Source: Medakamo hakoo
Taxonomy: Eukaryota; Chlorophyta; Trebouxiophyceae; Coccomyxaceae
Assembly (NCBI GenBank): GCA_026636295.1
Contig: CP089454.1
Span: 1,116,001-1,180,000 of the forward strand
Length of the DNA: 64,000 nucleotides
Direction of reading: 5' to 3'
The notes under the pieces are model-generated. The model had not been told where the DNA came from, did not search any database, and was given only the letters and a program-made list of their open reading frames with translations. The stretch's first letter is position 1, and each line of letters starts with the position of its first letter. The translations under genes and the position numbers were made by a program. Shown piece after piece: positions 17,781 to 24,793 of the stretch.

Positions 17781-19368
17781 ATGCCGTCGTCTGAAGCCGC
17801 CACGTCCGCCAAATCCGTGCTGGACGGCGTGCCCCAGGCCCCGCCCGACCCGATCCTCGGCGTGTCGGAAGCGTTCCGCCGGGACAGCCACCCGGACCGC
17901 CTGAACCTGGGCGTGGGCGCCTACCGCACCGAGGAGGGGCAGCCCTGGGTGTTGCCCGTCGTGCGGGAGGCGGAGGCGCGCCTGCTGGCGGGCGGCGGCG
18001 ACAAGGAGTACCTGCCGATCGAGGGCCTGGCCGACTTCAACGCGGCGACCGTCCGCCTGTTGCTCGGCGACGCCTCGCCGGCGCTGGCCGAGCGCCGGGT
18101 CGCCACCATCCAGGGCCTGTCTGGGACGGGGTCGCTGCGCGTCGGCGCCGCCTTCCTCGCCAAGTTCCGCCCGGCCGGCACGGTCGTCTACTGTTCCGAC
18201 CCGACGTGGGGCAACCACTTCAACATTTTCGGGGACGCCGGCCTGGAGACGCGCAAGTACCGTTACTTTGACCCCAAGACGGTGGGCCTGGACTTTGAGG
18301 GCATGGTGGCCGACCTGCGGTCCGCGCCGGAAGGGTCGGTCATCGTGCTGCACGGTGCGTTCCGTCGTCTCCTGTTGTTTGGGGTGGGGGTGGGCGCACT
18401 GGGTGAGAGCGCACCGCCGGGGGACACACTCTCTGGGCGCGCTCCGGGCAGCAGTGATTTTCAAGTCCGTCAGGGCGCGCCTCCATTTTTCCTCCGATGG
18501 CCGACCCCTGAAAGCAAGCGACACTGCGAGAGCAGAGTTTTACTGGAGCGGCAGACGTACTGGCCCGCCGCCGCGCCCCGGTGGGCGGCGTTTTTGGCAA
18601 TAGGTGGTCGCCCCACACTCCCGGGAAACGGCGCAAGAGGAAACACCCACCTCCGCCCCCTCCCACCCCTCCCACCCACCCACCAACACACCCACAGGGT
18701 GCGCCCACAACCCCACCGGCGTCGACCCCACCCGCGAGCAGTGGGCGGCCATCGCGGACGTGTGCGCGGCCCGGGGCCACCTCCCCTTCTTCGACGTCGC
18801 TTACCAAGGCTTCGCGTCCGGCGACTTGGACGCCGACGCCTGGGCGCCCCGGTACTTTGCGCACGAGCGGGGGCTGGAGATCCTGGTGGCGCAGTCCTAC
18901 TCCAAGAACCTGGGCCTGTACTGCGAGCGCGTCGGCGCTTTGAACTTTGTGCTGGCCGAGCCGGGCGCCGCGGCCCGGTCGCTGTCCCAGGCCAAGCGCA
19001 TCGCGCGCGCGCTGTACTCCAACCCGCCCGCCCACGGCGCCCGCATTGCGGCGACGGTCGTGGGCGACCCCGCCCTGTTCGCCCAGTGGAAGGCGGAGAT
19101 GGCGACGATGGCCGGCCGCATCAAAGAAGTGCGCGGGCGCCTGGCGGCCGAACTGGCGGCCGCCGCGCCCGACCGCGACTGGTCCTTCGTCACCCGCCAG
19201 ATCGGCATGTTCTCCTTCACGGGCCTGACGCCGCCGCAGGTGCAGCGCATGACGGAGACGCACCACGTGTACATGACGGGCGACGGGCGCATCTCGCTGG
19301 CGGGCCTGTCCAGCGCGAAGGCGGCGTACTTGGCTGCGGCCATGGCCGACTGTGTGAAAAACGCCTGA
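17781..19368 (+). CDS. aspartate aminotransferase
   Basis: Two exons, 17781-18354 and 18698-19368 (phase 1), give 414 residues. The class I PLP fold is complete: LNLGVGAYRTEEGQPWVLPVV, SGTGSLRVGAAF, DPTWGNHFNIF, CAHNPTGVDPT just after the intron, FFDVAYQGFASGD, and SYSKNLGLY with K261 as the PLP Schiff-base lysine. The enzyme swaps the amino group between aspartate and 2-oxoglutarate. The ATG at 17781 gives a short leader of about 20 residues with no strong transit character, so a cytosolic form is more likely than an organellar one. The single intron is 343 nt. Confidence 0.96.
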
Positions 19369-19566: not shown

Positions 19567-19612
19567 TTTACAGCTCCTCAAAGACTCACTTTTTACAGCT
19601 CCCCAATGACTC
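19567..19612 (-). terminator. duplicated TGTAA polyadenylation motif
   Basis: A roughly 22-bp unit is repeated in tandem (19567-19588 and 19591-19612). Read on the minus strand each copy contains AGCTGTAAAA, so TGTAA occurs twice, about 14 and 39 nt after the stop of the small secreted protein gene. TGTAA is the usual polyadenylation signal in green algae. The first copy overlaps the stop codon. Confidence 0.55.
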
Positions 19613-19979
19613 ATAACGCCTCGCCGAAGTCGACGCACCCGATCAGCGCCTCCCCGCCCGTCTGGGACAGGCGGCGGCCCTTCAGCATGTCCAGCTTGGC
19701 GAGCGTGATGTTTTTGATCTGGCAGGGCGTGGGTTTGGCGCCGGCCTTGACGATGCTCTCCAGCTCGTCCAGGATCGTGAATTTGGCGGCGTGCGCGGCC
19801 TCCGTCTTGTTCTTCAGCTCGTCGATCAGTGCAGCTTTTTTCTCGGCGACGAAATCGAATTTAGCGAGTTTGGTGCCGTTTTTGGCTCTGGCCAGGGCCG
19901 CGCCGGCTTCGCCGTAGGCAGAGACGGACGTCGTGGTCGTGGCCAAGGCGGCGACCAGGGCAAAGGCGATGCAACGCAT
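19611..19979 (-). CDS. small secreted protein, unknown
   Basis: One exon, 122 residues. Residues 1 to about 21 form a clear signal peptide ending TTTTSVSA. The mature part is charged and helical, with many Lys, Ala, Glu and Leu residues (KFDFVAEKKAALIDELKN). Two cysteines (in TPCQIKN and IGCVDF) could form one disulphide. N-glycosylation sequons occur (NGT, NKT, NIT). Its base use is less GC-rich than its neighbours and it has more Lys and Phe than most proteins here. I recognise no family. Confidence 0.7.
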   Translation of the reverse strand: MRCIAFALVAALATTTTSVSAYGEAGAALARAKNGTKLAKFDFVAEKKAALIDELKNKTEAAHAAKFTILDELESIVKAGAKPTPCQIKNITLAKLDMLKGRRLSQTGGEALIGCVDFGEAL

Positions 19980-20660
19980 GTTTGGTTTGGATGGGCGGAG
20001 AGTCTGGTGTGTGTGTGTGTGTGTGTGTGGGGGGGGGGCGTGTGTGTGTGGGGTGTGCGCGGGACGGACGTCTTACTCCCCCTCTCTCTCATCATGCCGG
20101 CCCGGCGGCATGATGAACAATGGCGGCATGGTGAGCGCGCACGTGAACGCCGTTGCTCGCGCAAATCTGTCTATTATCTCGCTCCGCCGCAACCGTGTGG
20201 CACGGCCTTCCCTGTCAACTCATCCACGCTTGCGCCGCCAGGCGTTAAAGCGCCCAAGCCGCATAGATGGGCGAGGAAGCGGAGAATCGACGCTTCCCTG
20301 GCTGGCGGCCGGTACAGGCCCCGGGCCGCGGACCAACCGCAATGCTCCCGCGCGCGGCCAGTGTGTCCGCGCGCCGGACAGATGGGGAGCCGGCTCCACG
20401 TCAATGATCCGTTTTTCAAGCGCAGTGAAGGCGTGACATCGCCACGCGCGGGTAGCTCAGGCCCGGAGGCCAGGAGCCGCCGCTCTCGTCCCATAACCGC
20501 ACCGTTTTTTCTTTGGTTTGTTCTGGTGACTCTCTCGAGGCCGAGTCTTTCAACTCGCTCAGACACCACCGTTCGCTGCTCCAACGGCGCTGCCGCGCGC
20601 GCCCGCACCACCACGCCACACCCCGCACATCAAATCGGCCCCGCCTGCGGTGCTGCAAAC
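19980..20660. other. divergent region between small secreted protein and Stt7-like kinase
   Basis: Contains a GT microsatellite followed by G-runs (about 20005-20055). The frame leading into the kinase stays open through most of it, so the kinase start is uncertain. No other gene was recognised. Confidence 0.45.
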
Positions 20661-23600
20661 ATGCTGTGCCTCCCGCCCGGCCGCGCGCCGGGCCTGGCCA
20701 AGTGCCCGGCGCCGCGTGCGGCCCGCCCTGCGCGGGCCATGCGCTTGACCCGCACCGCTGCGTTAAAAGACCGCGGCACGGCCGTGGACGTCTCATCTTT
20801 CGACGTCAACCGCGGCCTGAAGAGCCTGGGCGAAGGCAGTTATGGCCAGGTCTATGAAGTGAGTGTTGCAGGCGGTGGCAGCGGTCGCGTGTTCTCCCTT
20901 TTTCTTTGTTCCTCGCGGGCGCTCCCGCCCACCCACTCGCCCACACCCACTCGCCCACCCACTCGCCCACCCACCCACCCACCCAGACCGTCATGGACAC
21001 GCCCTCCGGCCCCACCCGCGTCGTGCTCAAGCGCATGAAACCCCGCGTCTCCGGCGCGGCCGGCTTCTTCGAGTCGGAGCACCTGCTCAACGTATACGCC
21101 GCGCGCAAGGCGCGGGACGGGCTCGCGTCCTTTTACGGTTTCGTGGACGTCCCGCCCGACCGCGCCGGCCGGCAGCTGGGCGCGGGCACCTACCTGTGCT
21201 GGTTGTACGAAGGCGAGCGCACGCTGGCTGAGTTCCTGAGGCGGCGGGACTGCGAGGCCGCCCTGGCGGCCGCGCTCGGCCTGGGCGGGGGCGCCGGCCC
21301 CCTCGCGCCCGGCGTCCTGGCCGCGACCGTCGCGTCGGACATCCTCACCGGCCTGGCGGGCTTGCACGCGGCCGGCGTCGTCCACCGGGACGTCAAGCCC
21401 GCCAACCTGATCCTGGCGGACGTGCCCCCCGGCGGGTGGGGCGAGGAGGCGCGCGGCGGGGCCGGCTCCACCGGCCGCCGCCGGTCGCGCGCGCCGCCGC
21501 CTCCGCGCTTCAAGCTCATCGACCTGGGCGCGGCCGCCGACCTGCGCACGGGCACCAACTACGAGCCCGTCGAATCCGTGCTGGACCCGCTGTACGCCCC
21601 GCCCGAGAAGTTCGTCCTGCCCACCGACGGCCCGGACCTGGCGTCCAAGCCGGGCGTCCTGGCCTCGTCCGTCCTGTCCCCGCTCCTGTGGGCGCGCTGG
21701 CGCCCGGACGCATTCGACGCGTACTCGGCGGGCCTGGTGCTGCTGCAGGTGGCCCTGCCCCGCCTGCGCTCGCCCGCCGGCCTGCGGGCCTTCAACGCGG
21801 CGCTGGCCCGGGCCGGGGGCGACCTGTCAGCCTGGCGGGACGGCGCCCGCCTGAGCGCGTCCGAGACCGCGGCCCTGGACGCCCTGGACGGCGCGGGCTG
21901 GGACTTGGCGTCGTCCCTGCTCGCGCCCCGCCCGGGCCTGGAAACCACGCCGGACGGCGGCGTCAGCTTCGCAGGCGGCGGCGGCGGCGGCGGCGGCCGC
22001 CCCACGGCGGCGGCCGCCCTGAAACACCCCTTCATCGCCCGCCTGGCCGTGCCGGTGAAACGGCGCACGCCCGCCTCGCCGCCCGCCGGCGCCGGCGCTG
22101 CCGCTGCTGCTGCCGCCGCGGCGGCGGCGGCGCCCGCCGCGCGGGGCGGGCCGGCGCCCGCCACCTCCGGCAGCCGCGCCTCGTCCGCGGTCGGCCTGCT
22201 GACCGGCACGGCGTCCGCCCTGGTCCGGTCCGTCTCCAAACGCCTGTTCGCCCTGGAAGGCCGGCTGCTGGCCCAGGCGGACGCCGTGGCCACACAGACG
22301 ACGCGCGTGCAAGCGGCGGCAGCGGCCGCCGCCGCAAAAAAGGGCGACGCGGCCGCGGCGGCCGCGTTGGCGGCGGAGGAGCGCGCCCTCACAGCCGAAC
22401 AGACAAAGCTGGCCGGCCTGACAGCCGACTTCCAGGCGACGGCGGCGCGCGCGTCGGAAACGCTGTCCGGCCTCTTGGGCAAGAGCGGCGGGACGGCAGA
22501 GGGCGGGCTCGACCCGGCTGCCCGGGCGCGCGCGGCCCTGGCCGTCGACCAGGGCAAGGCGGCGCCGGGCGGCCAGGACGGGGGCGGGCGGTCGCCCTCC
22601 GCCCTGACGACCGCGGCCGTCGGCGGCCTGGCCGGCGCGCTGCGGTGGACGGGCACGGCCTTGCGCGTCGCCACCGCCCTGGCCGGCCAAGTCGCGGCGG
22701 GCGCCGAGCGCGCCGCGGCCGAGGAGTCCGAGCGCGCGGCGGCCCTGCACGTCGCGCGCGCCGACGCCGCGGCCTTTGTCGAAGCCCTGCGGTCCCTGGA
22801 CCCGCCGCCGCCGCCGGGAGCGGACTGGGAGGCGGACGTGCGCCCCCGCCTGGCCCGGGACGGGCGCGTCACGGCCGTGTCGCCGTCCGCCGCGGCCGCA
22901 CTGTACGAGGCGTACGCCGCCGCGCGCGCGCGCGCCGCGGCCGCCCGGGCGTCCGAAGCCGAGCGCGGCTTCGCTGCCGCCCTGGCCGCGGCGTCCATCC
23001 CGCACACCGTCCCCTGGGCCGACGCGCAGCGGGTCCTGGCGTCCGACCCCGCCACCGCCGCCGTGCTCGCGGCGGGCCTCGACCCCGCGTCGCTGTACGC
23101 GGCCGCGCAAGCGGTCGCGGCCGATGAGGCCGCGTTCAACGACTTGCTGGCCGAAACCATCGGCCGCACCCGCCGCGGTGCGCGGTGGGGCGCGCTCCGC
23201 CCGTCCATTTGCGACGACCCGCGGTTCGCGCCCGTCCCGGAAACCCGGCGCCGGGAGATTTATGCTGTCGTGCGGGCGGCGCACGATGCGGCGGCCGCGG
23301 CCGCTGAAGCGGCGGAGGCAGAGGCGGCGGCCGCGCGGGCGGCGGAAGCCGCGGCCGCGGCGGAGAAGGAAGCGGCAGCGGCTGCTGGTGCGCGTGCCGC
23401 CGCCGACGCCTCCAGCGACGACGAGTCGACGACCTCGTCGGCCCCGCCCTCGCCCGCCAACGGCGCGACGGACGCCGCGCTGGCGGCGGCCGCCGCCGCC
23501 GCGGCCGACGTCGGCCCCGCCCTCCTGGAGGAACAGGCCCGCCTGCGCGCCGAGTACGAGCGCATGGAAGCGAAACTGCGGGCGATGGAAGCGGCGTTGG

Positions 23601-23710
23601 CCGCTGCTGCTGCCGGGAGCGGCGGCGTCAGCCCCGTCCCTGGCGCGGTCGACGGCGGTGGCGGCGTCGTGGCCGCCCTGGCCGGCCGCGAGGTGGAGGA
23701 GGACGAGTGA
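20661..23710 (+). CDS. Stt7/STN7-like protein kinase fused to FF-like repeats
   Basis: Two exons, 20661-20858 and 20987-23710 (phase 0), give 973 residues. The kinase (about 53-420) matches the state-transition family: LGEGSYGQVYE, VVLKRMKPRVSGA, EHLLNVYAA, RRDC, VVHRDVKPANLIL, LIDLGAAADLRTGTNYEP with DLG in place of DFG, LDPLYAPPEKFVLPTD, and a LRAFN element. STN7/Stt7 phosphorylates light-harvesting antenna proteins. Past an Ala-rich linker come three repeats of FF-domain type near 661-720, 725-778 and 781-835; the last reads AFNDLLAET, then W, ICDDPRF, REIYAVV. Coiled-coil segments close the protein. With this start there is no transmembrane helix or lumenal Cys pair. An in-frame ATG at 20382 would add a hydrophobic segment. 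Confidence 0.85.
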
Positions 23711-24003
23711 GGACGAGCCCTTTCCCTTTTTTTCCGGTCTGTTCTGATGATTTTTTAAACACACCAAGCACGGTTTTTTGATTCCGCGACAGAGGTACCA
23801 TGAGAGATGTGAGCGAGAGAGGGCAGAGATGAGATGTAAAGTCACACGACGACACACACGACACACGATGAGAAAAGGAGAGGGATGGATGGAGGTAGAG
23901 GGGGGGGGGGGGGTGGTGCGAGACCACGCTCCGGTGCACGTGTCTCACTCCAACAAAAGAGAGAGGAGGGTTCGCGCTCGCTTGTCCCCCCATCCGCCGC
24001 GCC
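23711..24003. other. intergenic: kinase 3' UTR and ARFRP1-like promoter
   Basis: TGTAA at 23835-23839 lies about 125 nt after the kinase stop and may be its polyadenylation signal. A G-run follows near 23900. Nothing coding was seen. Confidence 0.5.
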
Positions 24004-24793
24004 ATGTACACCCTCCTCAGCGGCCTGTATGACTGGGCCACCTCCAGGGAAGAGGTCCGCCTCCTCATGATCGGCTTGGATGGCGCGGGCAAGACGAGCC
24101 TGATGCATGCTCTCGTCGCGGCCGCGAGCGCGACGCCGTCGACCGCGCCCACGCCGTCGACTCGCCCGACTGTCGGACTCAACGTCGGCCGCCTGGACGT
24201 AGGCGGCGCGTCCGTCATGTTGTGGGATCTTGGTGGTGCTGCGGGCCTGCGTGTGATTTGGGAGAGGTGCGTGTTGATTTTTTCAAAGGCATTCGGTTTG
24301 GCCGACCAGCTGCGCGCGCGCGCGCGAGGGGCGCCTGGAAGGGCACACGGACGGACGGCGGGCGGCCTCACGCACCCTGTCCCACCCACGCAGGTATTAC
24401 CGCGACGCGCACGGCCTCATCTTTGTGGTCGACGCTGCCGACCGTGGCCGGTGGGAGGAGGCGCGCGCGGCGTTGGAAGCGGCCGTCGCTCACCCGGACC
24501 TGGCCGGCGCGCCGTTGCTTGTGGTCGCGCACAAGGCCGACGCAGTGGACGGGAGCGGGAGTGGGGGCGGAGGGACCAAGGGCGCGCCCGGCGTGGCGGA
24601 CGACATTGCCACCGCCCTGGGCCCGGCTGCCGCGGACGGGCCGCCTGGTGGGCCGGGCGGGTTGGTGGTCGCGGCCGCTGCCCGCCCGGCGGGCGGCGGC
24701 GCCGCGCTCGCCCACGCCCTGGCCTGGCTGGTGGAGCGGGCGCGGCGCGGAGGGCGGGCGGCGGCACTGAGAGAACGAGGAACGCCGGCGTGA
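24004..24793 (+). CDS. ARF-family GTPase, ARFRP1-like
   Basis: Two exons, 24004-24266 and 24394-24793 (phase 2), give 220 residues. The P-loop is GLDGAGKTS (24-32). VGLNVGRLDV and MLWDLGG mark switch regions, and ERYYRDAHGLIFVVD resembles ARFRP1 rather than ARF1. ARFRP1 works at the trans-Golgi in recruiting ARL1 and golgins. Two oddities: the switch II glutamine after DLGG is A79, and the NKxD base motif reads HKAD (134-137). The first is expected to weaken GTP hydrolysis. No N-terminal Gly for myristoylation follows Met, as in ARFRP1, which is N-acetylated. Confidence 0.82.

Follow-up and report, generated by a model that had tools for sequence, protein, structure and literature searches.

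STN7 and STN8 are the closest described relatives of the kinase considered here. The two STN kinases of Arabidopsis are both intrinsic thylakoid proteins, STN7 activity requires an N-terminal cysteine motif, and STN8, a proven membrane protein, is predicted by some programs to be soluble or to have no transmembrane (TM) helix (excerpt of PMC3801152). FF domains are protein-binding adaptors. CA150, FBP11 and Prp40 use them to recognise the phosphorylated tail of the polymerase, and FF domains also bind unphosphorylated peptides, either acidic or basic (excerpt of PMC2613882). The same excerpt, from 2008, distinguishes two classes of FF proteins, WW/FF and p190 Rho GTPase-related, and the WW-FF architecture is described as found in only a few proteins (excerpt of the review PMC8624252). 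Here we describe a gene that joins the two systems. It lies in a stretch of 64,000 nucleotides (nt) from the green alga Medakamo hakoo (contig CP089454.1, positions 1,116,001 to 1,180,000 of the forward strand; hereafter the window) and encodes an STN-type kinase followed by an FF array. An original prediction, made from the DNA letters alone, had placed both parts in one open frame, and this was borne out: the third repeat of the array scores above the Pfam cut-off and the exon that carries it is free of stop codons.

One reading frame for the kinase and the FF array

The kinase–FF gene is on the + strand and has two exons (20661-20858 and 20987-23710), which encode a product of 973 amino acids. 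On rebuilding the gene, the previously given coordinates proved correct, with an ATG at 20661 and a stop codon at 23708-23710. Its features, in window positions, are the following.

20661..20858, + strand: exon 1, with the start codon, a basic, Ala/Arg/Pro-rich (transit-peptide-like) N-terminus and the kinase glycine loop GEGSYGQV
20859..20986, + strand: intron, GTGAGT...CACCCAG, 128 nt, GT-AG, phase 0
20987..23710, + strand: exon 2, one open frame with the remaining kinase, linker, FF array, tail and stop codon
20799..22045 including the intron, + strand: STN-family Ser/Thr kinase domain, residues 47-419, with MsStt7d (4ix3) and Pkinase matches
22046..22744, + strand: helical, Ala-rich linker with two amphipathic stretches, at about residues 465-500 and 606-645
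22754..22924, + strand: FF-like repeat 1, residues 656-712, weak by sequence and supported by the structural model
22949..23110, + strand: FF-like repeat 2, residues 721-774, with a PRPF40A match and profile scores
23114..23290, + strand: FF repeat 3, residues 776-834, above the Pfam cut-off
23291..23707, + strand: acidic, Ala-rich tail with 24 D/E and 9 R/K, coiled-coil-like by eye at about residues 910-945
23835..23839, + strand: TGTAA, candidate poly(A) signal 3' of the stop codon, the sole + strand copy in 20501-24100

After splicing, the kinase N-lobe continues uninterrupted across the exon junction, and the 907 codons of exon 2 contain no internal stop. The fused frame is established at this level. 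The earlier description of a single 2.7-kb exon with kinase and FF repeats holds for the kinase past the glycine loop, the linker, the repeats and the tail; the glycine loop itself is in exon 1. Third-position GC is at least 0.82 in all 19 of the 50-codon blocks of the spliced frame and amounts to 0.96 in the kinase, 0.91 in the linker, 0.91 in the FF part and 0.86 in the tail. TGTAA is the poly(A) signal of green algae. Because the codon bias spans kinase, linker and FF part, and because the lone nearby TGTAA sits past the stop codon, the kinase and the FF part are likely to be on one mRNA. A merger of two neighbouring genes, in GC-rich DNA in which long chance frames abound, appears very unlikely. 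Such an artefact would be in line with the GC content of the window (66-83% per 2-kb block), with the long antisense frames that also occur at the locus (679 amino acids) and with a gene model predicted from DNA. However, the even third-position GC from kinase to FF part, the stop-free exon 2 and the absence of TGTAA within the gene, with one copy downstream at 23835, all argue against it.

We also considered a longer N-terminus, since the frame upstream of the ATG is open and contains a hydrophobic stretch and cysteines. It was rejected, as a matter of judgement and not of proof, because third-position GC upstream (0.50-0.80 in the 13 blocks preceding exon 1) is no higher than that of the other codon positions. 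Within exon 1, three blocks of 60 nt have values of 0.95, 0.80 and 0.80, a modest rise.

The kinase domain and its paralogues

The single PDB sequence match of the 907-residue exon 2 at E<=0.01 was MsStt7d of Micromonas (4ix3; E 2.4e-30), and Pfam Pkinase matched the same exon with 35.4 bits (cut-off 31.7). The catalytic set is intact, with K81, HRDVKPAN at 199-206 (HRD 199-201) and DLG at 245-247. With this sole PDB sequence match and the catalytic residues in place, the assignment to the STN type is upheld. The motifs LK, HRDVKP, KLID.GAAA, DP.YA, FD..SAG and LQ.A...LR are invariant in a four-sequence alignment. NCBIfam gave only three remote bacterial kinases, all far under their cut-offs.

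At least two further STN-type kinases are encoded in this genome. One of them (L004, C10:735822-736768) is a Stt7/STN7-like kinase with an intron-split gene, a CHNMGC motif and a long C-terminal extension; CHNMGC is followed by a hydrophobic-looking stretch, an arrangement that presumably resembles that of Stt7/STN7. The other (L003, C11:68385-69143) terminates shortly past the kinase domain and is perhaps the STN8/STL1 counterpart, a name given by exclusion. Over 261 shared columns, the window kinase is 45.2% identical to L003 and 44.4% identical to L004, and these two share 50.2%; identity to MsStt7d over the same number of columns is 40.6% for the window kinase, 38.3% for L003 and 36.4% for L004. 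In the four-sequence comparison, three sites group the window kinase with L003, four with MsStt7d and none with the Stt7-like L004. Judged by sequence, the window gene is a third STN paralogue and not the Stt7/STN7 orthologue, because it is another gene, L004, that carries the CxxxxC motif.

This motif is absent from the 973-residue window protein, whose five cysteines (residues 3, 15, 137, 155 and 808) are nowhere so spaced. By a hydropathy count on the modelled start, no N-terminal TM helix was found either, as none of the 15 most hydrophobic 19-mers falls within residues 1-46. The original prediction had remarked on a start lacking both the TM helix and the lumenal cysteines of STN7, and in the absence of CxxxxC and of a strongly hydrophobic N-terminal segment we agree with it. 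Both absences are less surprising than was suggested at that time, because the alga has a Stt7-like gene elsewhere, to which this one is an additional, third member of the family, and because some predictors find no TM helix even in STN8.

Sequence and structure of the FF array

The Pfam cut-off for the FF domain (PF01846) is 22 bits. Repeat 3 was scored at 24.7 bits within exon 2, 32.8 within a 187-residue piece, 23.6 alone and 23 in a six-frame genome scan. Repeats 1 and 2, when cut out singly, had no Pfam match; thus, of the three FF segments proposed earlier, the Pfam profile recovered the last one only. The pattern on which they had been proposed is likewise shared in part. A leading F, a central W and a D occur in all three, but only repeat 3 has the full D-x-R-F element (DPRF), which reads DGRV in repeat 1 and DPAT in repeat 2. 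When the region was scrambled or reversed, Pfam reported no FF match in any of nine versions. Against PDB, repeat 2 gave two weak matches, both to PRPF40A, the better one (2l9v) with E 0.46.

An FF profile was built from the two FF stretches (FF1 and FF2) of the alga's own PRP40 and a 39-residue piece of PRPF40A (2l9v), with 2000 shuffles as a control. Repeat 3 scored 21.1, repeat 2 14.3 and repeat 1 5.8 bits, scores that were reached by 0, 0 and 18 of the 2000 shuffles, respectively. Among 2677 six-frame tiles of the window, the top four fell within the array, followed by a tile of this protein's linker with 6.1 bits. Since the PRPF40A piece had been chosen for matching repeat 2, the profile was rerun without it. 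Repeat 3 then retained 20.4 bits (0/2000), repeat 2 had 6.4 (7/2000) and repeat 1 had -0.3 (1026/2000); nine tiles reached at least 5.8 bits, three in the array and six elsewhere. A profile that also contained repeat 3 of the window protein gave 13.1 bits for repeat 2 and 9.5 bits for repeat 1 (0/2000 shuffles each), but it carries no weight because it is partly circular.

In a single-sequence AlphaFold model (predicted local distance difference test score, pLDDT, 82), the array forms a tandem helical arrangement, and FF and spliceosome chains are its closest structural matches. The helices follow the FF order in all three repeats; the short element preceding the last helix is absent from repeat 1 and has a length of three residues in repeat 3. 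These small helical bundles in a tandem FF-type arrangement, with FF chains among the best structural matches, are what one would expect if the array had been read correctly, and the model predicts a tandem FF-like fold for all three repeats. From its profile matches, repeat 3 can be assigned firmly as an FF domain, the one clear case in the array. Repeat 2 is likely to be another, with moderate support from sequence. The assignment of repeat 1 is weakly supported by sequence and depends on its position, the F-L-W-D pattern and the model.

The six-frame scan of the 15.6-Mb genome detected three stretches above the FF cut-off, two in the PRP40 gene and one in the window gene (E 0.0015); a genome search at E<=0.001 returned PRP40 only. 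The PRP40 homologue (L001, C7:588280, minus strand) has two WW and two FF stretches. It and the window kinase were the only FF-bearing genes found, and this number is a lower bound, as the scan scored three candidates. L003 and L004 had no FF match in the six-frame genome scan, nor in the frames scanned for each, which did not include the last exon of L004, and a protein search with the FF array found no genome match besides itself at E<=10. No WW domain was detected in the window protein by Pfam, which gave only Pkinase and FF for exon 2 at E<=10 and nothing for exon 1 at E<=1.

In a survey of 5.39 million open papers, subscription papers and algal protein databases being outside this scope, no kinase–FF fusion was evident from the titles and abstract starts of the papers listed. 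The earlier statement that no STN7-type kinase with FF domains is known agrees with this survey. The fusion may, however, be known in annotation or be common in related algae. Scans of viral contigs revealed no fusion: of the stretches matched, none of 11 was confirmed for the kinase, two of 25 (L015 and L016) for the kinase alignment and none of 5 for the FF array. In bacterial and archaeal genomes, at least 592 stretches were matched, of which at least 203 were confirmed; the titles of 80 of these confirmed matches were all prokaryotic, and most were aligned around HRDVKP.

The linker had no Pfam match at E<=1 (22181-22744) and no genome match besides itself at E<=1, and the tail had no Pfam match above the cut-off. 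Directly downstream of the kinase–FF gene, on the + strand, is the start of an Arf/Arl-type GTPase gene (24004-24216; Pfam Arf, 31.8 bits). On the other side are the beginning of a class I/II aminotransferase gene (17781-18371; Pfam, 103.2 bits) and, on the minus strand in head-to-head orientation to the kinase gene, a frame of 122 amino acids (19611-19979), whose first residues look by eye like a signal peptide and for which Pfam gave no match at E<=0.01.

Possible location and function

A basic N-terminus free of acidic residues is expected of a plastid transit peptide. The first 36 residues of the window protein include 8 R/K and no D/E, which is closer to a plastid transit peptide than to the N-terminus of a nuclear protein. 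Because of this resemblance, we favour a plastid kinase with FF substrate docking over a nuclear one. The protein would be the third member of the nuclear-encoded STN (Stt7/STN8) kinases, imported into the chloroplast by means of its basic transit peptide. It may act from the stroma or from the stromal face, given that both the CxxxxC redox motif and a clear membrane helix are missing. The C-terminal FF array could serve as a docking arm that holds an acidic, possibly phosphorylated partner and brings it to the catalytic domain, so that substrates would be chosen by docking and not by membrane anchoring. We infer plastid import, the docking role and the nature of the partner from these features, and we give an even chance to a stromal or stroma-facing STN-family kinase that chooses its partners by FF docking. 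It is also conceivable, if rather doubtful, that a photosynthetic STN kinase captured FF modules, hitherto associated with nuclear RNA and transcription proteins and with RhoGAPs, to read the acidic or phosphorylated tails of plastid proteins and is both writer and reader. The array may read phosphopeptides, as was originally proposed, although FF domains also bind unphosphorylated ones.

A different view is that the kinase was relocated to the nucleus, where the FF repeats would bring the STN-type domain to phosphorylated RNA polymerase II or splicing factors, which it would then phosphorylate. We consider this unlikely, since the basic, acid-free N-terminus fits plastid import and STN-type kinases are known as plastid proteins. 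The lack of a TM helix and of CxxxxC would be compatible with such a role, as would the basic runs, which are possible nuclear signals. A further argument for it is that CA150, FBP11 and Prp40 bind the phosphorylated polymerase tail via FF domains; however, tail binding by yeast Prp40 required WW and FF domains together (both in the excerpt of PMC2613882), and the window protein has no WW domain. It is similarly improbable that the array was left over from the gene fusion and serves in structure or dimerisation, with no specific ligand, and that the kinase acts like other STN kinases. In favour of this reading, the signature is incomplete and the FF scores are low in repeats 1 and 2, the Ala content of repeats 1, 2 and 3 is 32, 37 and 20%, and the tail has a coiled-coil-like stretch. 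On the other hand, the signature of repeat 3 is intact and its 23 bits compare with 22.9 for the second FF stretch of PRP40, and the FF helix order is present in all three modelled repeats.

An STN member with neither cysteine motif nor clear membrane helix, but with an established binding module, would make it possible to test directly whether substrates in the plastid are chosen by docking. The protein would also be an FF protein beyond the two classes named in the excerpt of PMC2613882. With the p190 Rho GTPase-related class it shares FF modules in a signalling protein; those proteins are GTPase-related, whereas this one is a protein kinase. As in PRP40 and TCERG1, the FF domains are in tandem and, in the model, are linked by long helices, and repeat 3 scores like the second FF stretch of PRP40 from the same genome; unlike them, the window protein has no detected WW domain and its FF domains are attached to a kinase. 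Compared with STN7/Stt7 and STN8/STL1, the kinase domain is alike, as seen from the MsStt7d match and the shared invariant positions, but it lacks CxxxxC and a clear N-terminal TM helix, and it is followed by a 233-residue linker, the FF array and an acidic tail.
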